DNA from: a virus
Length of the DNA stretch: 36,669 nt
Reading direction: 5' to 3' (one strand)
IMG/VR virus record: IMGVR_UViG_3300028610_001191
Location: 1-36,669 of that record
A model generated the notes under the pieces. That model did not search any database. It was not told the DNA's origin and worked only from the letters and a program-made list of their open reading frames with translations. Of the stretch, positions 1 through 31,488 are shown in pieces. Made by a program: the position numbers and the translations under genes. Position 1 is the first letter of the stretch. Every line of letters begins with the position of its first letter.

Positions 1-1275
1 ACCAGCCGGATTACCAATGGCACGAAGAGCGTCAAGGGGATCAGCCCCAGGAGCGGGGATAGCAGAGGTTTCGATGGTGGCACCATCAGGGGTGGGACCA
101 GTGCCATAGATTGCTCGTGCTGTTTCAAGACGAGCCGCAGCTTCCCCGCCTGCTTTGTCATACCCAGCGAAACGCCAAGCGTTGTTCATCAGAGTGACAG
201 CTTCCTCGACCGAGGTGGCCTTCTCAAGAGCTGCCATCAGAGCCGGATCTTCCTGAAGGAAGAAAGCAGCCTGGGCCTCGGGAGATTTGTCGTCACCAGT
301 GAACTTCTGCATCGCTGCAAGACGATCACCATTCCAAGACATAACGCCACCAGCCCTGCGCTTACCATCCTTCCATGTGCCACTAGCGTTCTCCGCAGTG
401 AAGGCACTCTCATGTTGGCCTGTGGCAGCAATAGCAGCCAAGGCAAAAGGATTGCGAACCTTATCGGCAATCACAGTCATGAAACCACTCTCAGTTTCGG
501 TTTTGGTCTTGTAGCTTGGCAGAGCTGTCGGAGCAGGAGTACGGGCCTTCTCAACGAAAGCAGCTTCGTGGGTTGCAGCAATCTCAGGTTCCATGAGCCA
601 GCCGTTTTCATCTATCCAAACCCTCTCACCACTGGAGGATACCCAAGGTTCAATAGTTCCCGCAGGGGGAGCAGAAACAGCAGGAGTAGGAGCAGCACCA
701 GGGATCACAGGGACCGAAGCTTCAAGGGCAGCAGCGGCACCTCCAGGGGGAACAGTTGCGGTAGGCGCTCCAGTGGGAGCGACGACAGGTGCAGCTCCAG
801 TACCGGTGAGACCAAACTCTCTACCCTCCTCCGTACCTGCAATGAAACCAGGAGTAAGACCACGAAGCTCTGCACGGGCTGCAATCCGATCGACTTCCTC
901 TGCCGCCCGATCCACCTCGACAGCTTTCCTAATACCTGTGCTCGCAAGAGTGCTGGCAGTGGTTGCACGAGTAGATGCCAAACCAGCCGCATCAGCATAA
1001 AGCGCACTGACACGCTCTTTCATATCGGCAGAAATCCGCTTGCCCCTTAGACCACCACCCTCAAACCAGGCAGCAATTTCCTCTCGGTTTTTCAGACCGG
1101 AAATTTCAGCGAAAACCTCATCATCGGCTTTGGCTTCTTGGCCTGCCTGATAAGATGCAAGCACACCACCGGCAGCCTCAAAGCCCCGATCCAGGGAAAG
1201 ACCAGCCTGAGCCAAGATCTGAGACGTGCCCGTGAGATTGGGGGCTCGGGTAGGTTTGAGTTCGAGAACTGCCAT
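1..1275 (-). CDS. Internal virion protein with phage-tail lysozyme domain (partial)
   Basis: Open for 425 codons from an ATG at 1275 to the window edge, so the C-terminus is missing. AAGGAG lies ten bases upstream of the start. Residues about 1-150 are Ala-rich and helical, and 155-210 form a Pro/Ala/Thr-rich linker. Residues about 265-385 look like the Phage_lysozyme2 (phage tail lysozyme) family: a helix with GQHESAF (candidate catalytic Glu289), then GGVMSWNGDR, then an AQAAFFLQE helix. That family cleaves peptidoglycan from within virions. The gene is last in the late virion operon, on the side where the N4 virion RNA polymerase gene is expected, so it is probably an ejected internal protein that opens the cell wall. 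The lysozyme call is fairly sure; internal location is inferred. Confidence 0.72.
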   Translation of the reverse strand, partial: MAVLELKPTRAPNLTGTSQILAQAGLSLDRGFEAAGGVLASYQAGQEAKADDEVFAEISGLKNREEIAAWFEGGGLRGKRISADMKERVSALYADAAGLASTRATTASTLASTGIRKAVEVDRAAEEVDRIAARAELRGLTPGFIAGTEEGREFGLTGTGAAPVVAPTGAPTATVPPGGAAAALEASVPVIPGAAPTPAVSAPPAGTIEPWVSSSGERVWIDENGWLMEPEIAATHEAAFVEKARTPAPTALPSYKTKTETESGFMTVIADKVRNPFALAAIAATGQHESAFTAENASGTWKDGKRRAGGVMSWNGDRLAAMQKFTGDDKSPEAQAAFFLQEDPALMAALEKATSVEEAVTLMNNAWRFAGYDKAGGEAAARLETARAIYGTGPTPDGATIETSAIPAPGADPLDALRAIGNPAG

Positions 1276-1288
1276 CTGGTATCACTCC

Positions 1289-1702
1289 TTACAGACGATT
1301 TTCCGCAATCTTCGCATCAGCCTGCTCAGAACGACCTTCGGTCGCATAACGAGCACGGATACGATCTTCCAGTGCGGTATTATACACCTTGGTGGAATTT
1401 GCAAGGTTGGTCCGGAAAGCATCCTTCTGGAATTTCAGAGACTTCTTGGCCAGCTTCATCTGTTGGAAGCTGCTCCAGATGGAACCCAGGGTCTGCAATC
1501 CACCGAGAGCGAGACTGGCACCACCACCTTCGCCGAAGAAACCTTCACCAAAGAAACCACCACCACCTGCTCCAGCACCAATGGTGCTACCAGTACTGGT
1601 CAGGGCACCACTCGTGGCGCTAGGGGCACTTCCTGCAATAGCTCTGGATGCGAGAGGACCAACTCCACTGCTATCCAATGGGGGAATTCCATGTAGACTC
1701 AT
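1289..1702 (-). CDS. Small Gly-rich virion-operon protein
   Basis: 137 residues, with GAGGT about eight bases before the ATG at 1702. The N-terminal half is low-complexity Gly/Ala/Ser, with two tandem copies of GFFGEG near residues 49-59. The C-terminal half is a charged amphipathic helix ending in an Ala/Glu-rich tail. Glycine-rich hydrophobic segments followed by a helix are typical of small ejection proteins that sit next to large internal virion proteins. It lies 15 bases downstream of the 918-residue gene and 13 bases upstream of the lysozyme-domain gene, so it belongs to the same transcript. I do not recognise a named family; N4 has small virion proteins (gp51-gp53 region) in this position. 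A virion role is inferred from context. Confidence 0.6.
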   Translation of the reverse strand: MSLHGIPPLDSSGVGPLASRAIAGSAPSATSGALTSTGSTIGAGAGGGGFFGEGFFGEGGGASLALGGLQTLGSIWSSFQQMKLAKKSLKFQKDAFRTNLANSTKVYNTALEDRIRARYATEGRSEQADAKIAENRL

Positions 1703-7989: not shown

Positions 7990-9291
7990 CTATCCGCCCG
8001 GTATTCCGAGTTTCATGAAATCCTCGTCCGACATGGACAGGTAGTCCGGTTCGTTGGGAACTGCTTTTGCGGCAGCATTGGGGGTTGTTTTCGCTGAAGA
8101 GAGATTAGGATTGGGCTGCGATTTGGGAGCGGCCTTCCTTGAACCAGACGCGATTGGGGCTAGGCCCGTCTTTTTCTGGACTTCTTTCTTGTCGAACACA
8201 CCAGCTTTGTGCATCGCATTGCCTACTTGTTCGTAAGCCTGTAAGAAGGGAACGTCGGCTAGATAGCCCATTGTCCGCTGGTGTAGTAATTCTGTCTTGA
8301 TCTGCTCATACACCCCAGTATCTTTTTGTTCAAGCAGTTTTCCAAAAATACTCGGATTATCTCGCAGAGCCTCTTTCGACTCATCGTCCCAATCTCTATT
8401 GACATCGCTCAGAAGTTCCTTGCCACCTTCGACCTGGAGAGTATTGTCAATAGCATCCTGGAACGCCACATCTTTCGGATCACTGCGGTAGTTGGGGGTT
8501 GTGTGAGCATCACCCTTGGAGGGGTCCAGATCCAGAGGATCAATATTGTGCTTCTTCAGGTACTTCTGGATAGCCTCTTTGGAGCCCTTAGACAAATCGA
8601 TCAGTTCATTGAGTTTTTCGGGGTTGTTCAGTCCATGCTGCGTCAACATGGCATCCATTTCCCGAAGAGGCTTCATCTCACTCATGCGACGGGAGTAGTT
8701 AACTCCCATCTGCATAAGGCGAATAGCCTCCTCGGGGGTCCGAACCTGAACATCTTTGCCATCGGCCTTAAATGGGGCAGAGACCTTCTTGAAGAAGCTT
8801 GTGGCGTGCGTCTGCTCCTCAGCGACCTTGGCAGCCACTTTTTCTTCAGCAGTCTCTTCACCCTCATCCTCGCCATCTTTGGCTTTGAGCTTCAGAGTTT
8901 CCTTGTCATCGTTGACACCCTTGGCTTTTGCAGCCTCCTCTTCGGCAAGAGCAGCAGCAGCCTTTTCCTCGTCGGTTAGCTCTTCGCCGCTACCAGTGCT
9001 GCCTCCTCCGTCTTCTTCTTCGCCTCCACCTTCACCGTCAGATCCGTCACCAGCTTCTCCATCTTCGCCAGTCTCAGACGCAGCGCCCTCTGGATTGTCT
9101 CCGCCGCCAGCAGCTTCAGCCGCAGTATCGGCAGCAGCTTGAGCAGCGTCCTCAGTAGAAACTCCACCATCTTCATTCTCCTCGGCATTCGGATCGGCCA
9201 CCTCGGCGGGGGGCACGTCCAGTTTCATGAACTCATCATCCGAAAGGGTATCCGGATCGATGATCTTCTCCTGACCAGTTTCCCCGCTCAT
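7990..9291 (-). CDS. Probable scaffolding protein (N4 gp57 position)
   Basis: 433 residues, very acidic. Residues 30-150 are Glu/Asp/Gly/Ala/Ser low complexity, and 165-380 are helical and charged. The two ends carry the same short motif: SDDEFMKL at 17-24 and SDEDFMKL at 421-428, five residues from the C-terminus. Position between portal and major capsid, acidic helical composition and length fit a capsid-assembly scaffold, as gp57 of N4-like phages. The start codon overlaps the previous stop (ATGA), so translation is probably coupled. The repeated end motif may bind the capsid protein; that is inference. No protease motif was seen that would suggest a protease-scaffold fusion. Confidence 0.65.
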   Translation of the reverse strand: MSGETGQEKIIDPDTLSDDEFMKLDVPPAEVADPNAEENEDGGVSTEDAAQAAADTAAEAAGGGDNPEGAASETGEDGEAGDGSDGEGGGEEEDGGGSTGSGEELTDEEKAAAALAEEEAAKAKGVNDDKETLKLKAKDGEDEGEETAEEKVAAKVAEEQTHATSFFKKVSAPFKADGKDVQVRTPEEAIRLMQMGVNYSRRMSEMKPLREMDAMLTQHGLNNPEKLNELIDLSKGSKEAIQKYLKKHNIDPLDLDPSKGDAHTTPNYRSDPKDVAFQDAIDNTLQVEGGKELLSDVNRDWDDESKEALRDNPSIFGKLLEQKDTGVYEQIKTELLHQRTMGYLADVPFLQAYEQVGNAMHKAGVFDKKEVQKKTGLAPIASGSRKAAPKSQPNPNLSSAKTTPNAAAKAVPNEPDYLSMSDEDFMKLGIPGG

Positions 9292-20735: not shown

Positions 20736-20792
20736 GACTGAAACTCCACCCACTCTCAAACCAAGGGAAGAACGAACGAAGGACCAGAACCG

Positions 20793-20803
20793 AGCGCAGC
20801 GAG
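20793..20803 (-). promoter_or_regulatory. Possible leftward virion-polymerase promoter hairpin
   Basis: On the minus strand this reads TCGCTGCGCTC, identical to the four rightward early elements except for the middle base of the loop. The strand that would be template carries GCGCAGC, still a C(GNA)G mini-hairpin. It points left, towards the DUF1353 cluster 430 bases away. A G start would fall one or two bases later than in the other copies, so it is less certain. Confidence 0.3.
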
Positions 20804-21082
20804 GTGGTAGGGCCGAGAGTGAGTTCTGACCGACCCCCAGTATCATTACCCTCCATTACCGTTCACTAACTATGTTTCTGGTTTAACATGGCTCCATGTG
20901 AAATAGGTTTTTGATATACTCAACCATAATATATTTAAATTTGAGAAAAGTGGTATGTGTCGAGAGGTGTAGGTCTTTCACTACACTGGGGTACACATCT
21001 GAAGAACTACCCCCCCGCTTCTTTGACATACACCCATTCATGCCCCCCCTTGTTACTTACACCACCAGGGCCCAGCGTCCCT

Positions 21083-21099
21083 TCGCTTCGCTCTTACTG
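21083..21099 (+). promoter_or_regulatory. Early promoter candidate E1 (mini-hairpin type)
   Basis: TCGCTTCGCTC at 21083-21093. The template strand carries GCGAAGC, a C(GAA)G mini-hairpin of the kind recognised by N4 virion RNA polymerase. Nine bases after the loop the predicted start is G21099, 37 bases before the first early ATG. It shares TCGCTTCGCTCTTAC with E2. Confidence 0.6.
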
Positions 21100-21135
21100 A
21101 ACCCTTAACCATCAACCCCATCTGGGAGCACTCAC

Positions 21136-21387
21136 ATGTCCATGTTTCGCACCATGTCTCAGTTCGTGCAGAGCACGTTCAACACCCTCACCTCCACCGT
21201 GGACTCACTGCAAAAAGTCCTCGACATCGGCAATGATTATATTGCCAATCAGCACAAGTCAGTCACCAGGACCGTAGCAAAGGCTGCTATCCTCAACACT
21301 GCACACCAGCACGTCGCCATCCAGAATGAGCTGGAAGCAGACGATAAACTGGCCAAGATCTTCGCCGACCTCGAAGCCGAGTGGTAA
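21136..21387 (+). CDS. First early gene, helical protein of 83 residues
   Basis: GGGAG lies seven to eight bases before ATG 21136, 37 bases downstream of predicted early start E1. The protein is helical with Ser/Thr-rich heptads over residues 8-40 (TFNTLTSTVDSLQKVL), then a basic helix (HKSVTRTVAKAAIL) and an acidic C-terminus (LAKIFADLEAEW). No family is recognised. As the first gene expressed from the left end it is a good candidate for a host-takeover factor, but the sequence itself does not show how it would act. Confidence 0.6.
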   Translation: MSMFRTMSQFVQSTFNTLTSTVDSLQKVLDIGNDYIANQHKSVTRTVAKAAILNTAHQHVAIQNELEADDKLAKIFADLEAEW

Positions 21388-21403
21388 GTTCAACTCCCTG
21401 TCC

Positions 21404-21430
21404 TCTCCTGGAACCCTCCCAGGAGAGGGC
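21404..21430. repeat. Perfect 10-bp hairpin after the first early gene
   Basis: CCTCTCCTGG (21404-21413) pairs with CCAGGAGAGG (21421-21430) across a 7-base loop. No T-run follows. Two weaker hairpins follow (TCTCTA/TAGAGA and CTGAGG/CCTCAG), and GATTGACC occurs twice between 21450 and 21475. It may attenuate or process the early transcript between the first and second genes. Confidence 0.5.
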
Positions 21431-21527
21431 CCTAACTCTCTAGATAGAGATTGACCTGAGGGATTGACCATCAACCTCAGCGAGCCAATCTCAGCCTCTC
21501 ACGCATCAACAAGTAGGAGCAACTCCA

Positions 21528-21839
21528 ATGGCCCAGGCCAACCTGCCTACCACGCCTTTGAGAGCCGTGGATATCCCTGCAACCGACCAGCACAATCCAT
21601 CCCAACAGTGGTTCTTCACCGATGACGACATACACCGGTTCCTGGCTGCCAGGATGATGTATGCCGCCAAAGATGGCTCCATCAAAGACACCGATGGAGA
21701 AATCGTCGGACTGTGGTATTTTGCAGAGTTCTCCTGCAAATACCCTGGTGCAACCACTGACCAAGGTCATGGTGATCCGGCCTGTGAGGCCGAGAACGAC
21801 GACATGATTGCTGACCGTGATGATGGTCTGCTGTCATGA
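21528..21839 (+). CDS. Early protein, 103 residues, acidic
   Basis: AGGAG eight bases before ATG 21528, within a CAAGTAGGAGC leader repeated before two later genes. Residues 25-75 include PSQQWFFTDDDIHRFLAARMMYAA and a WYFAEFSCKYPG segment; the last 25 residues are strongly acidic. No known domain is recognised. The stop overlaps the next start (ATGA), so the downstream gene is coupled. Confidence 0.6.
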   Translation: MAQANLPTTPLRAVDIPATDQHNPSQQWFFTDDDIHRFLAARMMYAAKDGSIKDTDGEIVGLWYFAEFSCKYPGATTDQGHGDPACEAENDDMIADRDDGLLS

Positions 21840-22006
21840 TCAGATATGTAATCACCGGACCAGACTCAGATGGCCTGTTCAGGCTTGATGAGGTCACCGT
21901 AACCAAGAGACGCTGGTGGGTAGGTCATCGAGTATCCAAGTTCTTCATGGGATACTTCTCGAACTACATGGGAGCCCATATGGCCCAAAGGAGGTATGAG
22001 GGATGA
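21836..22006 (+). CDS. Small basic early protein, 56 residues
   Basis: Starts inside the previous stop (ATGA) and ends TGA at 22004-22006. It is basic and aromatic, with TKRRWWVGHRVSKFFMGYF in the centre and a short Met-rich end. No membrane segment is long enough to call. Translation is supported by the overlap chain on both sides. Function unknown. Confidence 0.5.
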   Translation: MIRYVITGPDSDGLFRLDEVTVTKRRWWVGHRVSKFFMGYFSNYMGAHMAQRRYEG

Positions 22007-22107
22007 ACCTTGCCCTGAAACCAAAGATCGTCATTGGGGCCGAGGAAAATACTCCTCCAACCAACCCTGTCACCAACGCTGGGATCAAGTCTCTGTATCC
22101 CAAGTAG
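22003..22107 (+). CDS. Very small early protein, 34 residues
   Basis: ATG 22003 overlaps the previous stop and has AGGAGG eight bases upstream. It reads MNLALKPKIVIGAEENTPP and ends in SLYPK at a TAG that lies within the CAAGTAGGAG leader of the next gene. Pro/Asn-rich, no domain. Good ribosome binding site, but small size limits confidence. Confidence 0.42.
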   Translation: MNLALKPKIVIGAEENTPPTNPVTNAGIKSLYPK

Positions 22108-22118
22108 GAGATGTGCTT

Positions 22119-22304
22119 ATGTCTATGGCACCCCCAGACAACAGACCTGTTAACCCTGATCCAGTCACGGCTGCCGAGGTCCGGAGGATGCTCAACAGCA
22201 TCTCCTGGTATTTCAAACGCAGCAATACTCTTGACGTTCCTTCTGATTTGGCAGAGAAGCTTTACATGCCACTGAGTGAGATCTGCCGAAGATATACCTC
22301 GTAA
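22119..22304 (+). CDS. Small early protein, 61 residues
   Basis: ATG 22119 follows AGGAG by eight bases; earlier in-frame starts lie inside the preceding gene and lack a site. An N-terminal Pro/Asn-rich stretch precedes a helix (TAAEVRRMLNSISWYF) and a second helix (PSDLAEKLYMPLSEICRRY). It looks like a small helical hairpin protein. Function unknown. A strong hairpin follows. Confidence 0.52.
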   Translation: MSMAPPDNRPVNPDPVTAAEVRRMLNSISWYFKRSNTLDVPSDLAEKLYMPLSEICRRYTS

Positions 22305-22335
22305 CAACCTATTCCGGAATGATCCGGGATCACAG

Positions 22336-22375
22336 CCTGTCCCCGCTGTTTGATGGCTCACGCAGTGGGGACAGG
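22336..22375 (+). terminator. Strong hairpin, possible early terminator or attenuator
   Basis: CCTGTCCCCGCTG (22336-22348) pairs with CAGTGGGGACAGG (22363-22375) with one G-T pair, a 13-bp stem and a 14-base loop. It is followed by TATAAACTC rather than a T-run, so it may attenuate or shield RNA rather than terminate. A short hairpin CCGGA/TCCGG lies just before it. Confidence 0.45.
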
Positions 22376-22415
22376 TATAAACTCATCACCAACCAAGTAG
22401 GAGCGATCGAGCGGT

Positions 22416-22565
22416 ATGAGACTGTCTTTTGTAGCCCTTTGCGCGTCGGTCGTCGTGACCACGCTGCTCGTCTCGATGCTCCTGGCACCCATCCTGTGGA
22501 GTGCTGCTGGCTACATCGAGAACATCATCACCCTCATCTACAACCCGATGGAGAACCTGCAATGA
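22416..22565 (+). CDS. Small membrane protein, 49 residues
   Basis: ATG 22416, with the repeated CAAGTAGGAGC leader about 12 bases upstream. One long transmembrane segment spans residues 5-31 (FVALCASVVVTTLLVSMLLAPIL by pattern), followed by a short polar tail. The stop overlaps the next start (ATGA). It could be a small inner-membrane effector; nothing more specific can be read. Confidence 0.5.
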   Translation: MRLSFVALCASVVVTTLLVSMLLAPILWSAAGYIENIITLIYNPMENLQ

Positions 22566-22681
22566 GCAAGCCCATCCCGAAGAATGACCTGCCAGTGTGG
22601 GTCAAGCTGCTCTGCATTCCCGCTGTCATCCTCATCTTGGTGGCACAAAACTTCACTCTCATCCTGGAGCAACTCCCATGA
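22562..22681 (+). CDS. Small membrane protein, 39 residues
   Basis: Coupled to the previous gene by ATGA. A basic, Pro-rich start (MSKPIPKNDLPVW) leads into a single transmembrane helix (LLCIPAVILILVAQNF) and a short acidic end. Its stop overlaps the following start, again ATGA. It sits beside another single-pass protein, so the two may form a pair. Confidence 0.48.
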   Translation: MSKPIPKNDLPVWVKLLCIPAVILILVAQNFTLILEQLP

Positions 22682-22857
22682 AGAAGTTCACCCTGTGGTG
22701 GCTAAATGGCAACCGTGAGGTTGTCAGTGGCCGCACACTCAATGACGCCATGAACCGTGCAGGCTATGCACATGGTGCCGTTATGGCACTGGATTTCTAC
22801 TCCCGAGGCGACTCTGACAAGTTCGTTCGGGGAGAGCAGAGCTGGGTGTTGAAATGA
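22678..22857 (+). CDS. Small early protein, 59 residues
   Basis: Coupled by ATGA to the preceding gene. The sequence starts MKKFTLWWLNGNREVVSG, followed by RTLNDAMNRAGYAHGAV. The beta-strand then helix pattern with W-W-L-N-G-x-x-x-x-V-x-G is often seen in small phage proteins of unknown role. No catalytic motif. Confidence 0.52.
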   Translation: MKKFTLWWLNGNREVVSGRTLNDAMNRAGYAHGAVMALDFYSRGDSDKFVRGEQSWVLK

Positions 22858-23102
22858 ACCCCAGCTTCATGGCCTTCTACAAGGCGTCCATCAATCTCAT
22901 GATGGGCGTCTCTCCCTCGAAGAGGGACCAACGGCTTGACCAGACTGATAGCAAGCTGTTCGCAACCAAACCACAGAGAGATCCCAAGACCGGGTTCCCT
23001 CGCTCTGACATGGTAGTTGAGGCCGAAGAGGCTGAGGCCAAGGAACTGGCAGCTCGTGCCCACCTCACCAAACTGGCCAAGGATGTGAAGGCTCGCATCT
23101 AA
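22854..23102 (+). CDS. Early protein, 82 residues
   Basis: ATG 22854 overlaps the previous stop. A hydrophobic/aromatic start (NPSFMAFYKASINLMMG) is followed by a charged, Lys/Asp-rich stretch and an Ala/Glu-rich helix (EAEEAEAKELAARAHL). The stop shares a base with the next start. Function unknown. Confidence 0.52.
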   Translation: MNPSFMAFYKASINLMMGVSPSKRDQRLDQTDSKLFATKPQRDPKTGFPRSDMVVEAEEAEAKELAARAHLTKLAKDVKARI

Positions 23103-23221
23103 TGGAGTATCTTCTGTTCTACATCGGTGCTCGTATCATGCTGATTATCATGATCAGCACGCCGATTGCCCTAATGTATTGGGCTTTTACCCGACAAGCC
23201 AACAACATGGACAAGGAGTAA
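23102..23221 (+). CDS. Small membrane protein, 39 residues
   Basis: ATG 23102 shares the last A of the preceding TAA. One transmembrane segment covers residues 3-29 (LLFYIGARIMLIIMI and STPIALMYWAF); the end is polar (TRQANNMDKE). The stop contains the ribosome-site-like GGAG for the HD gene four bases later. Confidence 0.48.
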   Translation: MEYLLFYIGARIMLIIMISTPIALMYWAFTRQANNMDKE

Positions 23222-23225
23222 GCCC

Positions 23226-23825
23226 ATGGCAGACAACTCACCCGATATGGTAGGTGTCCCGGTGACTAACCGAGGCACCTGGATGCAGCTCCGAGGTGGA
23301 CGCAGGTTCTATCCTCTGGACCCCAGAGCCGACGAGGTGTTCATCGAAGACATCGCACATAGCCTGAGCCGACAAATCCGTTACAATGGTCTGTCCGATC
23401 TGGATGTCAGCGTTGGTCAACACTCGGTTAATGCAGCATGGATTGCCGACATTGAGGGCTATCACGCTGGTGTCCAACTTGCAGCATTAATGCACGATGC
23501 ACCTGAGACCTACGTTGCCGACATGGTGCGTCCACTCAAGGTGGAGTTCCCGGACTACCGGGCACTCGAAGATACTGTTGCAACCGTGATCTGGGAACGG
23601 TTCAACCTGCCGGTCATCGATCATAAGCTCATCAAATACTTCGACAATCTGTGCTTGTCCTGGGAGAAACGGGACATGTATTGGAGTGCTGAGGAGTGGC
23701 CCAATATGCTGGACGTTCCAGAATATTGTCCCACGATGACAACGTGGTCACCAGACTATACCAAGGCCAGGTTCCTGAACCTGTTTCGTTGGCTCATGCT
23801 GGAGGTAGAATTCACCAATGGCTAA
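23226..23825 (+). CDS. HD-domain phosphohydrolase (YfbR/YfdR-like)
   Basis: 199 residues, with AAGGAG upstream of ATG 23226. The HD pattern is complete: H66 in VGQHSVNAAW, H90-D91 in ALMHDAPETYVADM, and D140 in LIKYFDNLC. This is the layout of 5'-deoxynucleotidases such as YfbR and of prophage YfdR-like proteins: His, His-Asp followed by a Glu/Asp-rich helix, then Asp. Such enzymes dephosphorylate deoxynucleoside monophosphates with a divalent metal. Expressed early, it could shape nucleotide pools (with Dcd and ThyX further on) or degrade a signalling nucleotide used by host defence. The family call is firm; substrate is not readable. Confidence 0.82.
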   Translation: MADNSPDMVGVPVTNRGTWMQLRGGRRFYPLDPRADEVFIEDIAHSLSRQIRYNGLSDLDVSVGQHSVNAAWIADIEGYHAGVQLAALMHDAPETYVADMVRPLKVEFPDYRALEDTVATVIWERFNLPVIDHKLIKYFDNLCLSWEKRDMYWSAEEWPNMLDVPEYCPTMTTWSPDYTKARFLNLFRWLMLEVEFTNG

Positions 23826-24021
23826 GCCTTCGGCATGGATCATCGTCAAGAAGCTCAATAACCACTTGGCGTGGAACCACTGGGCCGGTAAGTGGGACAC
23901 ATTGGCCCTTGCTTCTGTGTTCCACAACCAGGACTACTTGCTGCCCCAGGGCGGCAAGTGGGTTCCATGGGCAACCAATCCCAATTACGAGTGGAGCGAG
24001 GGTCCACTCATGAACACCTGA
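23818..24021 (+). CDS. Small Trp-rich protein, 67 residues
   Basis: ATG 23818 lies inside the end of the HD gene (8-base overlap). Eight tryptophans in 67 residues (for example LAWNHWAGKWD, KWVPWATNPNYEW) are unusual. No signal peptide. The protein probably forms a small beta sheet. Its overlap with the HD gene suggests coupled synthesis. No family recognised. Confidence 0.55.
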   Translation: MAKPSAWIIVKKLNNHLAWNHWAGKWDTLALASVFHNQDYLLPQGGKWVPWATNPNYEWSEGPLMNT

Positions 24022-24082
24022 ACCTACCGATAAACTTGGCACGAAAGAGAGGTCCAGATGAAATAAAGCCCAGAAACCCAAA

Positions 24083-24102
24083 TGCGGCCTGAAATGGCCG
24101 CA
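24083..24102. repeat. Hairpin TGCGGCC/GGCCGCA in the gap before E2
   Basis: Perfect 7-bp stem with a 6-base loop, in the 202-base gene gap between the Trp-rich gene and promoter E2. No T-run. The rest of the gap (24022-24190) shows no gene. It may end the first early transcript. Confidence 0.4.
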
Positions 24103-24190
24103 CATATGGGGGTATCGCGAACGGTAAGCTTATGGGAAAATCCATAGCATATGACCGACTGGCGGTGCCCCTTTATGTGCGACCTCATCA

Positions 24191-24207
24191 TCGCTTCGCT
24201 CTTACAG
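24191..24207 (+). promoter_or_regulatory. Early promoter candidate E2 (mini-hairpin type)
   Basis: TCGCTTCGCTC at 24191-24201, then TTACA and a predicted start GG at 24207, nine bases after the loop as in N4 early promoters. The predicted leader is only 17 bases, and its GGAAGG serves as ribosome binding site for ATG 24224. Confidence 0.62.
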
Positions 24208-24223
24208 GAAGGAAACCAAGCCC

Positions 24224-24427
24224 ATGACCTCGGGTATTTCGTGGATACTTCGAGAGGTCTTTGACCTCGATAGGCTACAGGATACGTTGGACACCGTGAA
24301 CTGGGTTCGTAACCATGTTGGTCGCAACCCTCCCGATCGTATCACGGACCAAGACATCATCGAACTGGACAAAGCCTCCCAATCCCTGGAGGCTATCCTG
24401 TCACGTATGAAGGACAACCAGTCATGA
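24224..24427 (+). CDS. Small helical early protein, 67 residues
   Basis: First gene after E2, with GGAAGG about 12 bases before the ATG. Helical and acidic: ILREVFDLDRLQDTLDTVNWV, then ITDQDIIELDKASQSLEAIL, a likely two-helix coiled coil. The stop overlaps the next start (ATGA). Function unknown. Confidence 0.56.
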   Translation: MTSGISWILREVFDLDRLQDTLDTVNWVRNHVGRNPPDRITDQDIIELDKASQSLEAILSRMKDNQS

Positions 24428-24543
24428 AGAAACTGCTCGTCGTCCTCAGCGTTATGGGGGCACTCAGTCTCACTGGCATACCCACCGCAACCGCCATTTT
24501 CATCTGGACTGTTGCCATCCCATGGATGGAACAGTTCCAATAA
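24424..24543 (+). CDS. Small membrane or secreted peptide, 39 residues
   Basis: Coupled by ATGA to the preceding gene. MKK start, hydrophobic stretch (LLVVLSVMGALSLTG), a Pro/Thr turn, then a second hydrophobic stretch (AIFIWTVAIPW). Either a signal-anchor or a two-helix hairpin membrane peptide. Confidence 0.48.
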   Translation: MKKLLVVLSVMGALSLTGIPTATAIFIWTVAIPWMEQFQ

Positions 24544-24557
24544 ATCAGGAGCTTACG

Positions 24558-24890
24558 ATGCCTGCTGTCATCAAACGCCAGCTCACTTACTCGATCCCTT
24601 TGGAGATCATGAGCCGAACTTCCCTGATCCAGGACATGATCGCCACGGAGGCGATGAACATCAACGGTCAGTGTCTCATCACGTATGAGAGCCTGCACAC
24701 CTATCGGGAGACTCTCTCAACCATGGTCCTCACCATGGTCGTTGCCATCGACCAGTGCGATCGTGTGCATGTCGCCATGCAGAAGACGATCGCTCTCACT
24801 CTCTCTATCTACAGCCCCTCAACCGAAGCCATCCAAGTCACTGACGAACCCGTCATGACTCGTGATTTCAACGTCAAGGAGATCCTCTGA
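24558..24890 (+). CDS. Early protein, 110 residues
   Basis: ATG 24558 has AGGAG six bases upstream; an earlier in-frame start lies within the previous gene and is rejected. Helical with many Met and Thr: SLIQDMIATEAMNI, then ETLSTMVLTMVVAIDQCD and a beta-rich end. No signature motif. The stop shares a base with the next start. Function unknown. Confidence 0.58.
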   Translation: MPAVIKRQLTYSIPLEIMSRTSLIQDMIATEAMNINGQCLITYESLHTYRETLSTMVLTMVVAIDQCDRVHVAMQKTIALTLSIYSPSTEAIQVTDEPVMTRDFNVKEIL

Positions 24891-25237
24891 TGCCCAAGAT
24901 GGTTGTTCCCAAGTCCATCAAGAAGGCCGAGTTCACCGACTACACGCTGGCTGATACCGTCGGCGGCACAATACGTGCAGCAGTGCTGCGTGAGAACTAC
25001 GAACGTGAGCAGATGCAGATCGGTATCCATCGTCAGCTCGGGATCTTGGCGTCCATCGACAACCCCGAGCATATCGGTCATCAGGCTCAGCCGCGTGGTG
25101 GCTACCCGCATCGACGCTACATCAATCCCGATTTGCCCAGCAAACGTGGGGCGTCGAAACTCCTCCATCGCTTCAAGATGATCGGAGGAAAAATCTATAT
25201 GCTTCATGCCACTCGTGGCTGGAAGGCGTATGCCTAA
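24890..25237 (+). CDS. Basic early protein, 115 residues
   Basis: ATG 24890 follows the previous stop by overlap (TGATG). An N-terminal helix (VPKSIKKAEFTDYTLADTVGGTIR) is followed by an Arg/His-rich middle (QPRGGYPHRRYINPDLPSKRG) and a C-terminal segment (RFKMIGGKIYMLH). Basic composition might suit nucleic-acid binding. No family recognised. Confidence 0.58.
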   Translation: MPKMVVPKSIKKAEFTDYTLADTVGGTIRAAVLRENYEREQMQIGIHRQLGILASIDNPEHIGHQAQPRGGYPHRRYINPDLPSKRGASKLLHRFKMIGGKIYMLHATRGWKAYA

Positions 25238-25467
25238 TGCTCAGCCTCTTTTGGCTGTGGAATATCATACGACCGTGGGTTCGTATGGTTAGAGTAGCGG
25301 GACTAGCCCGCTCCTCATCTTATGGTGTTAGTGGTAACTCCAATAGCCGCCAGGTTCCGGTCCTGGTCTGGTTATATGGGAAACCAACCCACACTTGAAT
25401 CGACGAGGCGGGTCATACCTGGTTCATAGGATCCAGATTGGCCCGCCCACATCAACAGGAGCTATCT
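25238..25467. other. Structured intergenic region with several hairpins
   Basis: 230 bases without a gene. Stems that can be read: CATACGA/TCGTATG, AGCGGG/CCCGCT with a 5-base loop, GTTA/TAAC with GTGG loop, CCAGG/CCTGG with a 7-base loop TTCCGGT (tRNA T-arm-like), and GGCGGG/CCCGCC with a long loop. No full tRNA cloverleaf can be drawn. It may be a structured leader or a small RNA ahead of the exported-protein gene. AGGAG at its end serves ATG 25468. Confidence 0.45.
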
Positions 25468-25821
25468 ATGTGTAACTTCGCAAAGGTTCTACTCTTCATC
25501 GGCATCGCCACTCTCGGTATTGTTCTTTACGGTATGTTCGCATCTCAGGCGTCTGCGGACACGCTTACGCCTGAACCTGCCGAAGAGTATATGTATGAGG
25601 ACTGCATATCCTCCGGCCTGTTCACGGACATGATCGTCGATCTGGAAGGCCGTATGGCTGCCAATGGCGAGGTCATGTCCGGCAACGTATTCGTCATCGT
25701 CTTTCCCGACAACACCTTCGGCCTGTTCGTTTATCTGGATCTGATCGACGGTCCTGACACGGTGTGTCTGCTGGATACCGGTGCGTTCGAGGCGTCTCAG
25801 CCCTTTGAGATGCCTGTCTGA
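25468..25821 (+). CDS. Exported (periplasmic) early protein, 117 residues
   Basis: ATG 25468 has AGGAG seven bases upstream. A signal peptide is clear: hydrophobic residues 7-24, then ASQASA with predicted cleavage after Ala30. The mature part is acidic, has two Cys (46 and 100) that could form a disulfide, and a beta-rich core (NVFVIVFPDNTFGLFVYLD). It is made early from the structured leader upstream. Early export suggests an envelope task such as superinfection exclusion or receptor masking; that is inference. E3 begins eight bases after its stop. Confidence 0.62.
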   Translation: MCNFAKVLLFIGIATLGIVLYGMFASQASADTLTPEPAEEYMYEDCISSGLFTDMIVDLEGRMAANGEVMSGNVFVIVFPDNTFGLFVYLDLIDGPDTVCLLDTGAFEASQPFEMPV

Positions 25822-25828
25822 AGAAGGG

Positions 25829-25845
25829 TCGCTTCGCTCCTCAAG
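25829..25845 (+). promoter_or_regulatory. Early promoter candidate E3 (mini-hairpin type)
   Basis: TCGCTTCGCTC at 25829-25839, then CTCAA and predicted start GGG at 25845, nine bases after the loop. It shares TCGCTTCGCTCCTC with E4. GGGTC...GAACCC around it can also pair weakly. The leader to ATG 25894 is 49 bases. Confidence 0.6.
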
Positions 25846-25893
25846 GGAAGAACCCGTAGCTACTAACCCAACCATCCTTGAAAGGATATGTCC

Positions 25894-26280
25894 ATGGCCG
25901 TAATTTCTGTCAACTCTCCTCGCCGCAACCCGATCATCAACGACAACGATGAGTATCAGGGTCTGTGGCTCAACGTCGGCATCATGCAGTCCGGCGTCGA
26001 AGAGGGCGATGAGCCCTCGTTCGTGCGTCTGCCTCGTGGCGTCGCCGTCTCCGACCTGAAGTCCCGGAAGATCTATGACAACATGGATCCGGACTTCGCC
26101 GCGTCGGCCAACCTGATGAACCAGCTTATCACCGAGATCCAGAAGAAGGCTCTCACCCTCGGCGAAGGCGAGTCGATCCCGGTCAATCTGTCGGTCCAGC
26201 TCTACCGCCGTCAGGAAGAGTCGGTCCAGGCTGCCACTCCGGCTGCCAACGAAGACTTGGCCACGGCTCTCTTTGCCTAA
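25894..26280 (+). CDS. Conserved-looking early protein, 128 residues
   Basis: Start ATG 25894 is chosen over ATG 25888 because AAAGGA is then at normal spacing. A soluble beta-rich protein: DEYQGLWLNVGIMQ, FVRLPRGVAVSDL, a helix LMNQLITEIQKKALTLGEGESIPVNLSVQLYRR split over residues 75-108, and an Ala-rich tail. It has the look of a small single-stranded-DNA or RNA-binding beta-barrel, but no motif proves it. Codon use is strongly C-ending (GTC, CTC, GGC) compared with neighbours, which suggests high expression. It is alone between E3 and a strong hairpin. Confidence 0.6.
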   Translation: MAVISVNSPRRNPIINDNDEYQGLWLNVGIMQSGVEEGDEPSFVRLPRGVAVSDLKSRKIYDNMDPDFAASANLMNQLITEIQKKALTLGEGESIPVNLSVQLYRRQEESVQAATPAANEDLATALFA

Positions 26281-26315
26281 GGCCGCTTTCTGCCACATGT
26301 GTGGTTCTATACTGT

Positions 26316-26356
26316 CATACCCCTGCGCTCCAACCAAGTTGGAGCGTGGGGGTATG
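26316..26356 (+). terminator. Very strong hairpin ending the E3 unit
   Basis: An 18-bp stem with two wobble pairs (arms begin CATACCCC and end GGGGTATG), closed by a 5-base loop. It lies 35 bases after the stop of the 128-residue gene and 46 bases before E4. No T-run follows (AACTTTG), so it may act as a transcript 3' end protector or a factor-dependent stop. Confidence 0.55.
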
Positions 26357-26401
26357 AACTTTGAACTAGGAACAAATAGATTGACGAAATAGACTGCATT
26401 G

Positions 26402-26418
26402 TCGCTTCGCTCCTCCCG
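26402..26418 (+). promoter_or_regulatory. Early promoter candidate E4 (mini-hairpin type)
   Basis: TCGCTTCGCTC at 26402-26412; the predicted start nine bases after the loop is G26418. It precedes the NADAR gene and the small genes after it. The leader to ATG 26521 is about 103 bases and contains a duplicated segment. The flank CCGC-GTT-GCGG just downstream is a second small hairpin. Confidence 0.55.
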
Positions 26419-26484
26419 CGTTGCGGTCAACTTCGAGTTAATCTACGTGAAACTGGAAATTGGCCAAAAGTTCAAAATATGGAT

Positions 26485-26538
26485 GGAAACTCCCTGAAAC
26501 CTAACTGGAGTATAAATACTATGGGAAACTCCCTGAAA
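26485..26538 (+). repeat. In-frame direct repeat at the start of the NADAR gene
   Basis: GGAAACTCCCTGAAA occurs at 26485-26499 and 26524-26538, 39 bases (13 codons) apart, each preceded by an ATG context. Both copies read GNSLK in the NADAR frame. It looks like a duplication of the gene's first codons, leaving two possible starts (26479 and 26521). Confidence 0.6.
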
Positions 26539-26994
26539 ATCGCTGGCTTCTTCGGAGAATATCGCTTCTTGAGTAACTTCTGGCCCGCCTCCATCACCAT
26601 ACTGGGTATACCTTATTTGAATGTAGAGGCCGCCTATCAAGCAAGCAAAAGCTATGACATGACCGTTCGAAAATCATTCTCACATCTCAGCCCCAAAGAG
26701 GCCAAGGCCAAAGGCAGAATAATCAAATTTGGTGGTGACTGGAGTGACGTAAGCAAAGTCACATCCATGGAATTATGCCTACGGGCAAAGTTCAATATCC
26801 CTGAGCTGAAAGCTCGACTCATATCTACAAACGGTTTTGAGTTGGAGGAAACCAACACCTGGAATGATCAATTCTGGGGTGTTTGCCGAGGCAAAGGCCG
26901 AAACCTCATGGGTAAGCTACTTATGGGACTCCGTGACGAACTGGTCATGTATGACTACCCAAACATCGACGATGTAAGAGAAATCCCCTTCTGA
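26521..26994 (+). CDS. NADAR-domain protein (YbiA-like N-glycosidase fold)
   Basis: 157 residues from ATG 26521 (GGAG ten bases upstream); ATG 26479 would add 14 residues. NADAR motifs are in order: GEYRFLSNFWPA (12-23), VEAAYQASK (35-43), a middle helix SMELCLRAKF, NDQFWGV (115-121) and GKGRNLMGKLLMGLR (124-138). The family includes the riboflavin-pathway N-glycosidase YbiA and DNA ADP-ribosylglycohydrolases that reverse DarT-type guanine modification. Which activity this one has cannot be read. In a phage early region, removal of ADP-ribose placed on DNA or nucleotides by host defence is an attractive role. The gene is under E4. Confidence 0.85.
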   Translation: MGNSLKIAGFFGEYRFLSNFWPASITILGIPYLNVEAAYQASKSYDMTVRKSFSHLSPKEAKAKGRIIKFGGDWSDVSKVTSMELCLRAKFNIPELKARLISTNGFELEETNTWNDQFWGVCRGKGRNLMGKLLMGLRDELVMYDYPNIDDVREIPF

Positions 26995-28330: not shown

Positions 28331-29119
28331 ATGGACCAAAAACAAAGCGACCTGGAGATCCTCTACTCGAAACATCAACTCCTCCCAGTCTTACGGGAAG
28401 AGTTCGATGCAATCGCAATCCAGTACCCGATCGACGCCGACCATGAGTTCGTACGTGACATGCTGAGCCAGATCTACCTGCACCGTCAGGCTGATCCTCC
28501 TACCTTGGTTGGGATCCTGTCCCCCAAGTATGGCACTCCCCAAGAGGTGGCAGACAAACTGCTGCTCATGTGTGAGTTCGACTACCTCGATTTCAGTGAA
28601 ACCACCGGCAACTTCATGGTCAAATACGACGTGAGCGATAACATCGAGGCCATGCTGGAGAGATACCAGTATCCACTGCCAATGATCGTCAAACCCGACA
28701 CGATCCACGATAACTTCTCCACCGGGTACCACACCATCAAAGGCTTAGTGATCCTGAATGGGTCGACATATTTCAATAATCTCGACGTATGTCTGGATCA
28801 CCTTAACCGCGTGAACGCTGTTCCTCTGGTTCTGGACTTCTCGGTGATCCGCTCTGCCGAGGGCAAATACATCAAGCCCACCCGCAAAGAGGGGGAGTCC
28901 TACGATGACTTCCGCAAGCGACTGAAGCAGGCATCTGTCTTCTACAGCGTCTCTTTGGAGGTCATGGAGGGTCTCGCTGAACTCTCTGATGTTCTGTACC
29001 TCACCCACAAATACGACCGCAGAGGTCGCTGCTACGCCTCTGGTTATCACGTCAACACCCAGGGGACCGACTACAACAAAGCAGTCCTCCAGCTCGCAGC
29101 AAAGGAAAAATTAACATGA
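28331..29119 (+). CDS. RNA polymerase II subunit RNAP1, N4 gp15-like
   Basis: 262 residues, AGGA seven bases before ATG 28331. The C-terminal part has THKYDRRGRCYASGYHVNTQG (about 225-245), which corresponds to the D-x-R-G-R motif of single-subunit T7-type polymerases. GSTYFNNLDVCLDHLNRVNAVPLV (about 143-165) matches the preceding N-terminal palm/thumb region. In N4, gp15 and gp16 together make the heterodimeric polymerase that transcribes middle genes; this is the gp15 part, and the length agrees (269 in N4). Here the partner gene lies 1.1 kb downstream instead of adjacent. Assignment is by motif and gene order. Confidence 0.86.
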   Translation: MDQKQSDLEILYSKHQLLPVLREEFDAIAIQYPIDADHEFVRDMLSQIYLHRQADPPTLVGILSPKYGTPQEVADKLLLMCEFDYLDFSETTGNFMVKYDVSDNIEAMLERYQYPLPMIVKPDTIHDNFSTGYHTIKGLVILNGSTYFNNLDVCLDHLNRVNAVPLVLDFSVIRSAEGKYIKPTRKEGESYDDFRKRLKQASVFYSVSLEVMEGLAELSDVLYLTHKYDRRGRCYASGYHVNTQGTDYNKAVLQLAAKEKLT

Positions 29120-29908: not shown

Positions 29909-30253
29909 GTGGCACATAATTCGAAGAAGAATAAACGTCACGCTCCTAAACAGGACGAAGATGACTATGTATATCCGACTGCAAAGGTCCGAGAGACCAA
30001 GACACGAGGTCGGCGACACGATGCCAATCTCATCAAAGATGGATTGTTGGCTTACGAAAACCCTGATGAAGATGCTGATGAAAATGAAGACCAGGAGATC
30101 ATGGACGACTGCAATGACATGATCACCGAGTTCAACGAAACACAAGATGTTATCTTCAATCAAGACGATGCTGATGAATACGATCACATCGACCACGACA
30201 CTCTACATGATGCCATCATGGATGACTACGATTACGAATGGGAGGATTACTGA
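29909..30253 (+). CDS. Very acidic protein, 114 residues, directly upstream of RNAP2
   Basis: GTG start at 29909 with AAAGG eight bases upstream. A basic N-terminus (NSKKNKRH) and Arg-rich TKTRGRRH are followed by about 65 residues dominated by Asp and Glu (for example DEDADENEDQEIMDD and AIMDDYDYEWEDY). It shares one base with the RNAP2 start (TGATG), so the two are coupled. Such a tail could mimic DNA or bind the polymerase. No domain is recognised; the coupling makes a polymerase-related role worth testing. Confidence 0.58.
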   Translation: MAHNSKKNKRHAPKQDEDDYVYPTAKVRETKTRGRRHDANLIKDGLLAYENPDEDADENEDQEIMDDCNDMITEFNETQDVIFNQDDADEYDHIDHDTLHDAIMDDYDYEWEDY

Positions 30254-31443
30254 TGTTTCAGACGCTTACTGGTACCGAATACCTCAAAGCCGAAATCGCC
30301 TGCAAACACGACAAGTCCTTTGAGAAGAAGAACTGGAGCGATCGTATCGCCCATTTCAACTTCATGCTCCTCGATGACGAAGACACCTACAAGAAGGCCA
30401 GCAACCCTGTTGGTCTTCGTGCAGCCGTCGAGGCGTACAAGAAGGGAATGGCAGGCCATCCCACCGGCTACATGATCACCTTGGATGCCAGCAGCTCTGG
30501 CCTCCAGCTTCTGTCTCTTCTGGTCTCTTGTCCTCACTCCTGGTTGCTCTGCGGTGGAGACATGTATGATTGTGTCGACTCTTACACCACCATCTACGGG
30601 GCAATGAACCTTCACGGGGCCCTGACACGCAAACAAGTGAAGGACGCCATCATGACGAGCCTTTATGGCTCGGTATCCACACCAGAAGAGGTCTTCAAGG
30701 AGAACATCGACGTGTTCTACGAAACCATGGAGACCATGGCACCTGGGGCATGGGAACTGAACCTCAGCCTTCAAGATTTGTGGAACCAGGTCAAGGGATC
30801 CGCCTACATGTGGAGGCTCCCGGATAACTTCCATGCTGGCATCGAGACCAAGAACAAAGAGACTAGGAACTTCTCCTTCTTGGGTGTCGATCACAAGCTC
30901 ATTGTGGAAGTTGACGGAAGACCTGACTTCCACAAGGGTCTAGGCCCAAACCTAATCCACTCGATCGATGGCATGATTGTTCGTGAGATGGTTCGTCGCT
31001 GCTCTTACGACCAGCCTCACATAACCAATATCACCTTCGCCATCACCAAAGACTTAGAATTCGAAATCGACACCTACAATAAACACGAAATGACCCAGAA
31101 GCTCTGGGACAATTACGTCGATTCAGGGTTCTTGAGTACCCGCATTCTTGACTATCTGGATACTCAAACTTTGACTGTGGTGGATACTGTGGTCATCGCT
31201 AAGATGATCCTGGGACTTCCGGATGAACCCTTCCATGTGGTTACAGTCCATGACTGTTTCCGGGCTCACCCTAACTACGGCAACGATGTGCGCCAGCAAT
31301 ACAACACTATCATGGCCGACATCAACGACTCACGAATGCTGTCTGATATCTGTTCTCAGATCGCTGAGAGAAATCTCAATGCCAGGAAGGTTGGAGTGAT
31401 TAACCGTCAAAACATCCTCAATGGCAACTACCTGCTTACCTAA
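30253..31443 (+). CDS. RNA polymerase II subunit RNAP2, N4 gp16-like (catalytic)
   Basis: 396 residues from ATG 30253, with GGGAGG eight bases upstream; a GTG/ATG further 5' lies inside the acidic gene and is rejected. Catalytic motifs of T7-type polymerases are present. Motif A is GYMITLDASSSGLQ (72-85, Asp78) and motif B LTRKQVKDAIMTSLYGS (124-140; Arg126, Lys130, Tyr138, Gly139). The PNLIHSIDG segment is at 232-240 and motif C FHVVTVHDCF at 327-336 (Asp334). With RNAP1 it should transcribe phage middle genes. N4 gp16 is about 404 residues. A strong terminator follows six bases after the stop. Confidence 0.92.
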   Translation: MFQTLTGTEYLKAEIACKHDKSFEKKNWSDRIAHFNFMLLDDEDTYKKASNPVGLRAAVEAYKKGMAGHPTGYMITLDASSSGLQLLSLLVSCPHSWLLCGGDMYDCVDSYTTIYGAMNLHGALTRKQVKDAIMTSLYGSVSTPEEVFKENIDVFYETMETMAPGAWELNLSLQDLWNQVKGSAYMWRLPDNFHAGIETKNKETRNFSFLGVDHKLIVEVDGRPDFHKGLGPNLIHSIDGMIVREMVRRCSYDQPHITNITFAITKDLEFEIDTYNKHEMTQKLWDNYVDSGFLSTRILDYLDTQTLTVVDTVVIAKMILGLPDEPFHVVTVHDCFRAHPNYGNDVRQQYNTIMADINDSRMLSDICSQIAERNLNARKVGVINRQNILNGNYLLT

Positions 31444-31448
31444 AAAGC

Positions 31449-31488
31449 AGGCTACCCCGTCCCAAACCAGGGATGGGGTAGCCTTTTT
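31449..31488 (+). terminator. Rho-independent terminator after RNAP2
   Basis: A 15-bp stem with one G-T pair (arms AGGCTACCCCGTCCC and GGGATGGGGTAGCCT), a 6-base loop, then TTTTT. It closes the polymerase transcript six bases after the RNAP2 stop. Confidence 0.93.

Follow-up and report, generated by a model that had tools for sequence, protein, structure and literature searches.

Four identical copies of an 11-base word, TCGCTTCGCTC, lie in the early region of a 36.7-kb fragment of an N4-like phage (Schitoviridae, Rhodovirinae-like), and they are very probably early promoters of a virion RNA polymerase (vRNAP). The stretch analysed, called the window throughout, is the whole 36,669 nucleotides of IMG/VR record IMGVR_UViG_3300028610_001191. 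Judging from the sequences of the window and its relatives, we consider it highly likely that the four elements are promoters of the N4 type in which the template strand would fold into a hairpin whose short inner stem is extended by a tandem A.G/G.A mismatch and an outer pair. The plus strand carries exact copies at 21083, 24191, 25829 and 26402, and there is no fifth copy on either strand. The count in the initial annotation was the same, and its estimate that chance would provide well under one copy also held: the expectation is 0.02 (standard deviation 0.14), and none of 100 shuffles reached four. Because the seven-base core GCTTCGC alone is ordinary in the window (5 found, against a shuffle mean of 3.2), the signal resides in the flanks of TCGCTTCGCTC.

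Each copy stands in front of early genes, as had been claimed. Site E1 (21082–21094, plus strand; T-TCGCTTCGCTC-T on the non-template strand) precedes the open reading frame (ORF) starting at 21136, E2 (24190–24202, plus) that starting at 24224, E3 (25828–25840, plus) the gp2-like gene starting at 25888, and E4 (26401–26413, plus) the ORF starting at 26479, with the RNAP1 gene 1.9 kb further on. When the loop centre is set at −11, +1 falls on a G in all four, at 21099 (GA), 24207 (GG), 25845 (GG) and 26418 (GC), respectively, and the predicted E3 transcript begins GGGAAGAACCC. E1 falls within a 65-residue ORF with a TTG start, and E3 and E4 fall within a 313-residue antisense ORF, also with a TTG start (25489–26430, minus strand), which overlies two plus-strand ORFs and matched no PHROGs or Pfam family; both TTG ORFs are probably spurious, the larger probably a mirror ORF.

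The ruler was calibrated on N4 itself. A rule asking for a C-TNC-G loop with at least four pairs, +1 being counted from the loop centre at −11, finds exactly three sites in the first 15 kb of N4; these are P1, P2 and P3, each of them a plus-strand site with GG at ruler +1, in agreement with the spacing to a G start on which the initial annotation had relied. P1 has the core GCTTCGC and 5 bp, P2 and P3 have 7 bp each, and the P1 oligonucleotide of a 2025 structure preprint contains the same hairpin as found by the rule (PMC12633501, accessible portion). N4 vRNAP is reported to recognise template −11A/G, −10G, −8G and +1C (PMC4496689, accessible portion), and all of these are present in all four window sites. 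Equally, the three-nucleotide loop with a C-G closing pair, 5′ G and 3′ A, as described in the same portion of the source, appears as C(GAA)G in all four. The N4-type inverted repeat around the heptamer, a Watson-Crick stem of about 5–7 bp, is absent from the window sites.

A probable mismatched stem on the template strand

A scan for hairpins of Watson-Crick pairs found hairpins in relatives and missed all four window sites, and we therefore considered a stem with mismatches. The template strand of TCGCTTCGCTC reads 5′-GAGCGAAGCGA-3′, a C(GAA)G with two Watson-Crick pairs in total, closing pair counted, where the initial annotation, with 2 bp plus a closing C-G, had counted one pair too many. 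Around the GAA loop, C-G and G-C are followed by a tandem A.G/G.A at −7/−15 and −6/−16 and by an outer level at −5/−17, which is Watson-Crick in three of the four sites (A-T in E2, G-C in E3 and E4) and an unpaired A.A in E1. The tandem 5′-GA-3′/5′-GA-3′ is known in DNA for sheared pairs. The template strand alone is expected to fold well, since pairing in the partner strand would depend on C.T/T.C. The earlier idea of virion-polymerase promoters with a reduced hairpin is thus kept in its promoter part, given the recognised bases and the canonical hairpins at equivalent places in relatives, and given up in the other part: the flanks fit a stem of five levels containing a tandem G.A mismatch, and the stem is probably not reduced. 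In N4, the junction between double and single strand has been placed between −5 and −4 (PMC4496689, accessible portion).

From this arrangement we infer that the phage DNA, supercoiled in the host, would let the template strand extrude a small hairpin, its GAA loop closed by C-G and G-C and continued by the tandem A.G/G.A, probably sheared, and by the outer pair −5/−17. The ejected polymerase would bind this hairpin and start RNA at the G eleven positions past the loop centre, and the early genes, the middle polymerase RNAP1/RNAP2 included, would then be transcribed.

The tandem is enriched across the family. In 82 loci we collected all plus-strand CTNCG words that lie within 9 kb upstream of RNAP1, have G at +1 and are Watson-Crick paired at the second level (310 sites); the minus strand upstream and both strands downstream of RNAP1 served as controls (604 sites). 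The template-type tandem occupies levels 3 and 4 in 22 of the 310 sites, spread over 10 loci, as against 4 of the 604 controls (Fisher P = 1e-7, a guide only, the loci being related), and in 18 of 304 sites when the window is excluded. Levels 3 and 4 are both Watson-Crick in 126 of the 310; among other non-Watson-Crick combinations the next commonest has 4 sites, the mirror tandem of the non-template strand has 3 and the reverse order has none. The template-type tandem is the sole clearly enriched non-Watson-Crick stem in these loci. When any three-base loop was allowed, with outer pair and +1 G required, the tandem was not enriched upstream of RNAP1 (36 plus, 37 minus), and the signal is therefore tied to the promoter loops, CTNCG and, in DFL12phi1, CGTTG, and not to the tandem alone. 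Four-base loops were also tried and rejected: upstream they gave 16 plus versus 3 minus sites, but downstream, where more sequence was covered, the counts were 14 and 21, and no word was repeated.

These strand counts also bear on whether the element acts in the transcript and not in DNA, as an RNA element of the 5′ leader or as a terminator, which we consider extremely unlikely. A 5′-terminal RNA stem does often follow the sites: a transcript stem of at least four pairs from +1 is present in a fraction of 0.50 of tandem and 0.61 of Watson-Crick sites, falling to 0.05–0.26 for starts displaced downstream by at least two bases. With the start moved one base upstream the fraction is about as high, and +1 is not fixed to the base. 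At the P2 place many starts have GGCAATNATGCC or GGGAATNATCCC, which differ by a compensated change. However, in the element itself the sense strand would need U.C/C.U pairs, it is the template-strand tandem that is enriched (22 sites, as against 3 for the sense strand), and no Rfam family matched at the gathering score. As an observation apart, the 5′-terminal stem with which transcripts from the P2 place would often begin, GGSAATNATSCC, has a third pair that alternates between C-G and G-C among phages (L064 at 8682, L069 at 2679, L070 at 8925, L077 at 9008 and others; 25845 in the window).

The flanking pairs covary. The alignment holds 27 tandem sites, 19 of them distinct; of the GNA-loop tandems lacking +1 G (n = 7), only that at 8137 of L070, before a first early gene, was kept. 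Among the distinct sites the outer pair is GC in 9, CG in 4, UG in 2, AU in 1 and other in 3; at the inner second level, GC occurs in 15, AU in 2 and CG in 2. Eleven cells changed on both sides, compared with 3.4 in shuffles, and the covariation score was 0.40, compared with 0.10; none of 500 shuffles reached either value, and slid registers scored far lower. For the outer pair of the 23 GNA-loop sites, 17 are Watson-Crick, 2 are T.G and 4 are neither, whereas 33% of opposite-strand tandems have a Watson-Crick outer pair (P 7e-5). Of the 29 GNA-loop tandems upstream of RNAP1, 17 of the 22 with +1 G have a Watson-Crick outer pair, versus 2 of the 7 without.

By its sequences, DFL12phi1 is the strongest single case for the tandem stem. 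It has four tandem sites with a different loop, GTT (template AAC), that is, C(GTT)G on the non-template strand, and within this one genome the inner pair changes from G-C to C-G and the outer pair from C-G to G-C. Three of its four sites pass the filter of a further scan. Sites of this type lie at 987, 2456 and 3260 in L164 (DFL12phi1, reversed) and at 1437 in L071. A rule that the inner pair is purine-left beside the tandem, true of 22 of 22 GNA-loop sites with +1 G, is broken by three of the four DFL12phi1 sites and was dropped.

Promoter places and polymerases in relatives

Relatives were gathered through an RNAP2 search, which gave 57 viral loci, and through an RNAP1 alignment, which gave 79 loci from the best 80 of 116; a locus search based on the ATPase found no relatives. 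Roseophage-type relatives have up to 3–4 recurring promoters, before the first early gene, before the gp2-like gene and before RNAP1 or a short unit holding it, a placement that mirrors the P1/P2/P3 layout of N4. E1, E3 and E4 occupy the places equivalent to P1, P2 and P3, respectively, where many relatives have N4-type hairpins of 5–7 bp; E2 is an extra site, and no equivalent promoter place was found for it in the relatives examined. Five of the six other loci matching the first early gene carry a site about 45–55 bp upstream, of either stem type, that of L070 with A at +1. The gp2-like gene was matched in 37 of 83 loci searched, 22 of them roseophage-type and 15 more distant. Before this gene the 22 have a GA-type site in 7 (the window, L062, L068, L069, L070, L071 and L072), a Watson-Crick stem of 5–7 bp in 13 and of 4 bp in one (L065), with none found in L076; the 15 distant loci have a Watson-Crick site in 6 and a GA-type site in none, no site being found in the other 9.

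The two stem classes agree in spacing, in their preferred letters (−4 T, −1 T, +1 G and +2 G) and in tending to a 5′-terminal RNA stem near +1. L064 and L080 each combine a tandem site with a 6- or 7-bp site that has an identical loop; one polymerase therefore presumably reads both. On an RNAP1 tree of 78 loci (L066 was left out because of a stop in the translated stretch, and four near-copies were merged), the tandem label, scored for GNA loops only, requires 7 changes, at least 5 of them forced by supported branches.

The 11-mer is not equally common elsewhere in related phages, an outcome that the initial annotation had named as one that would speak against it. In 20 records searched whole there are 19 exact copies of TCGCTTCGCTC, 18 at early sites and one elsewhere, in G016. 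It is hard to reconcile this with a repeated word without promoter function, whether a mobile repeat or an effect of composition, and we give that explanation next to no chance, even though similar GAGCGNAGCGA words occur singly elsewhere and the looser pattern TCRCTNCGYTC matches scattered places. One such place is on the minus strand of the window at 20792–20802, a single leftward TCGCTGCGCTC of tandem type with another loop letter and T at the +1 place, which is probably due to chance.

That the 11-mer is identical in its four window copies might also suggest a word that some regulator, of host or phage origin, binds as double-stranded DNA, or else a sigma-factor promoter merely resembling an N4 hairpin. 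We find this very unlikely. Among relatives the letters differ (TCGCTGCGCTC, TCACTTCGTTC and TCCCGTTGGTC) while the pairing pattern persists, and at equivalent places other relatives have true inverted repeats. As for a sigma factor, the window has 2 sigma-70-like sites as against a shuffle mean of 10.8, both on the minus strand and away from the four sites.

Judged from gene order in N4, phiCB2047-B, RD-1410W1-01 and R7L, the vRNAP gene of this phage would lie outside the fragment, just left of position 1. The left edge (1–1702, minus strand) holds a cut protein (1–1275) and a 137-residue protein (1289–1702) at the place of N4 gp51 and gp52, an assignment made by gene order and size. The initial annotation had named absence of a vRNAP gene from the genome as an outcome that would speak against it; of 17 related records, 16 encode a vRNAP relative in an open frame of 3362–3796 codons, the miss being a 43.7-kb record. 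The tandem-type phages phiCB2047-B and RD-1410W1-01 encode cysteine-free vRNAPs of 3330 and 3352 residues, respectively. N4 residues R424, D559, K670 and Y678 have been named as catalytic (PMC2784036, accessible portion), and the stretches around these residues align across 20 rows, L163 departing around R424. The N4 promoter-contact residues were tried as a test of vRNAP membership and dropped, being mostly unconserved in both promoter classes.

A separate observation concerns the letter at −11, which is nearly constant within a genome (114 of 120 within-genome pairs agree, compared with 36 expected, in 52 genomes) and differs between relatives, sisters included (e.g., L090, L067, L063, L077/L085 and L068/L069). 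Whole promoter sets with template C (L067, L068 and L079) or T (L090, eight sites) break the purine rule as given in the accessible portion of the N4 report, and N4 itself mixes A and G. In the close pair L077 (A at −11) and L085 (G), the vRNAP pieces share about 78% identity across 1565 residues, and thus no specificity residue can be named. Early promoters of schitoviruses might then form a genome-wide rewritable code, with a −11 letter set for each phage and a stem switchable between Watson-Crick pairs and a template-only tandem G.A, potentially active without a single-strand-binding protein (SSB) melting the partner hairpin and missed by inverted-repeat scans; we offer this generalisation as possible but doubtful.

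Weighing the proposed tandem stem

A number of results weigh against promoters with a tandem stem. Nearest-neighbour DNA energies predict no stable hairpin for three of the four window template sites and a hairpin in another register for the fourth, and the drawn tandem structure scores +2.4 to +2.9 kcal/mol. With regard to covariation, two of the five measures do no better than shuffles, namely the number of pair types (reached by 173 of 500) and that of pairs changed on both sides (289 of 500). One level further out than the outer pair, 13 of the 19 distinct sites are unpaired and 6 paired; the outer level of E1 is unpaired; and copies from the same genome or from sister genomes do not count as independent. 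In addition, the GA rows were selected for GA, the inner pair was selected for pairing and the DFL12phi1 rows were selected also for the outer pair, so that evidence free of such selection comes from the outer pair of the remaining 23 sites. The tandem label is somewhat clustered on the RNAP1 tree (shuffled mean 9.3 changes, 12 of 500 shuffles being as low). Under the strict rule 26 of 78 loci, some with little upstream sequence, have no site, and by the rules used no promoter of either stem type was found before early genes in the Roseovarius phage pieces examined (L076, L166 and L167). Lastly, the vRNAP gene of the window phage is not within the fragment, and the residues with which N4 vRNAP contacts its promoter are for the most part unconserved in roseophage vRNAPs, whichever the promoter type, in an alignment that is weak at about 24% identity.

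Two of these points can be qualified. The Roseovarius phages may have a different hairpin form; in the pieces of Roseovarius sp. 217 phage 1 two sites pass the scan, one inside and one behind the RNAP2 gene. Its near twin L076 has the gp2-like gene, and its record (G020) has a vRNAP. As for the energies, the same model gives +1.2 for GCGAAGC, which we take to be the 2-bp hairpin with a melting temperature of 76.5 °C. Mini-hairpins of this type with 2 and 3 bp are listed at 76.5 and 88.5 °C (PMC10527192, accessible portion), and because the model gives so poor a value to hairpins listed as very stable, we treat the energies as uninformative and not as support; the model is probably blind to this kind of hairpin.

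The stability of 2-bp hairpins of the GCGAAGC type, the failure of energy models to favour adding the tandem and the missing outer pair of E1 would all suit a simpler arrangement, in which the sites are vRNAP promoters with the 2-bp mini-hairpin only and the flanking TC...TC, unpaired, is read as bases or aids extrusion. This arrangement leaves unaccounted for an outer pair past the tandem that varies on both sides and that 17 of 23 sites have in Watson-Crick form, and a tandem that stays while the loop or the inner pair changes (L062, L068 and DFL12phi1). Moreover, in L064 and L080 the same levels are ordinary pairs with other letters at another promoter, which is hard to square with a reading of bases. 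We thus regard the 2-bp-only arrangement as unlikely and retain the five-level stem as the probable one.

Gene neighbourhood and comparison with known systems

The window contains an N4-like module of RNAP1, RNAP2, ATPase, portal, major head protein and large terminase. By RNAP2, the named phages that match it best are roseophages of the Rhodovirinae, among them Sulfitobacter phage phiCB2047-B (60.8%) and Dinoroseobacter phage vB_DshP-R7L (58.5%), and its RNAP1 sits inside a supported 22-row tree group that holds named roseophages. Up to 16.4 kb the genes are on the minus strand and mainly structural or for packaging; beyond this they are mostly on the plus strand, and the early region runs from about 21 kb. 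The first early gene (21136–21387, plus; phrog_14155) encodes 83 residues of unknown function. A 67-residue ORF without a PHROGs family match follows E2 (24224–24427, plus), and the gp2-like gene (25888–26280, plus; phrog_4099) encodes 130 residues; its relatives carry the annotation 'N4 gp2-like protein' in DFL12phi1 and Roseovarius sp. 217 phage 1. For the first-gene and gp2-like proteins of the window, no direct match to N4 gp1 and gp2 was found. Directly behind E4 is a gene for a 171-residue NADAR-domain protein (26479–26994, plus; PF08719), possibly an early counter-defence or NAD/ADP-ribose gene, and between E4 and RNAP1 the early region also has a cell wall hydrolase (PF07486, 27488–27862). 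RNAP1, the N4 gp15-like subunit of the middle polymerase (28331–29119, plus; phrog_2166), and RNAP2, the N4 gp16-like subunit (30238–31443, plus; phrog_2051), complete this set, and immediately after RNAP2 there is a strong terminator-like stem (31449–31484, 15 pairs and a T tail).

Hairpin promoters with inverted-repeat stems have been described or predicted for N4, for LUZ7/LIT1/PEV2 and for CB1-like phages (PMC4496689, PMC3715699 and PMC6027278, accessible portions). For the roseophages RPP1 and RLP1, a 2014 study could identify no promoter consensus (PMC4193335, accessible portion), and a 2020 roseophage review contains neither the word promoter nor the word hairpin (PMC7650795). In the open-access literature, within the portions of text accessible, we found no vRNAP promoter described with a tandem G.A stem. 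A mismatched stem explains why an inverted-repeat scan misses the window sites, and predicted early promoters are now available for RD-1410W1-01, phiCB2047-B and DFL12phi1. In RD-1410W1-01 two of the GA-type sites have their predicted start G at 8938 and 9520, and the first site has A at ruler position 8150. Such phages would offer natural promoter/polymerase pairs from which to learn how folded single-stranded DNA is read by a polymerase. A stem confined to one strand makes the roles of SSB and supercoiling in promoter opening testable; if the stem is as proposed, one-sided hairpins could act without SSB melting a partner hairpin.

The window sites share with N4 P1, P2 and P3 the loop-to-start ruler, the recognised bases, as far as the accessible portion of the N4 report gives them, and the places before early genes, and with P1 also the heptamer core. 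They differ in number, four as against three, and in their stems: those of N4 have 5–7 Watson-Crick pairs, whereas those of the window would have two, then the tandem A.G/G.A, and then an outer pair in three of the four. LUZ7/LIT1/PEV2 and the Pectobacterium CB1-like phages likewise have three predicted hairpins with three-nucleotide loops before early genes, but these are described with 4–5 nt hairpins and a central purine, and no mismatched stem is mentioned in the accessible portions of the two reports (PMC3715699, PMC6027278). The core of the window template strand is identical to that of the GCGAAGC mini-hairpins; however, these are oligonucleotides (PMC10527192, accessible portion), whereas in the window the core is set before genes, within what would be a longer, mismatch-bearing stem.

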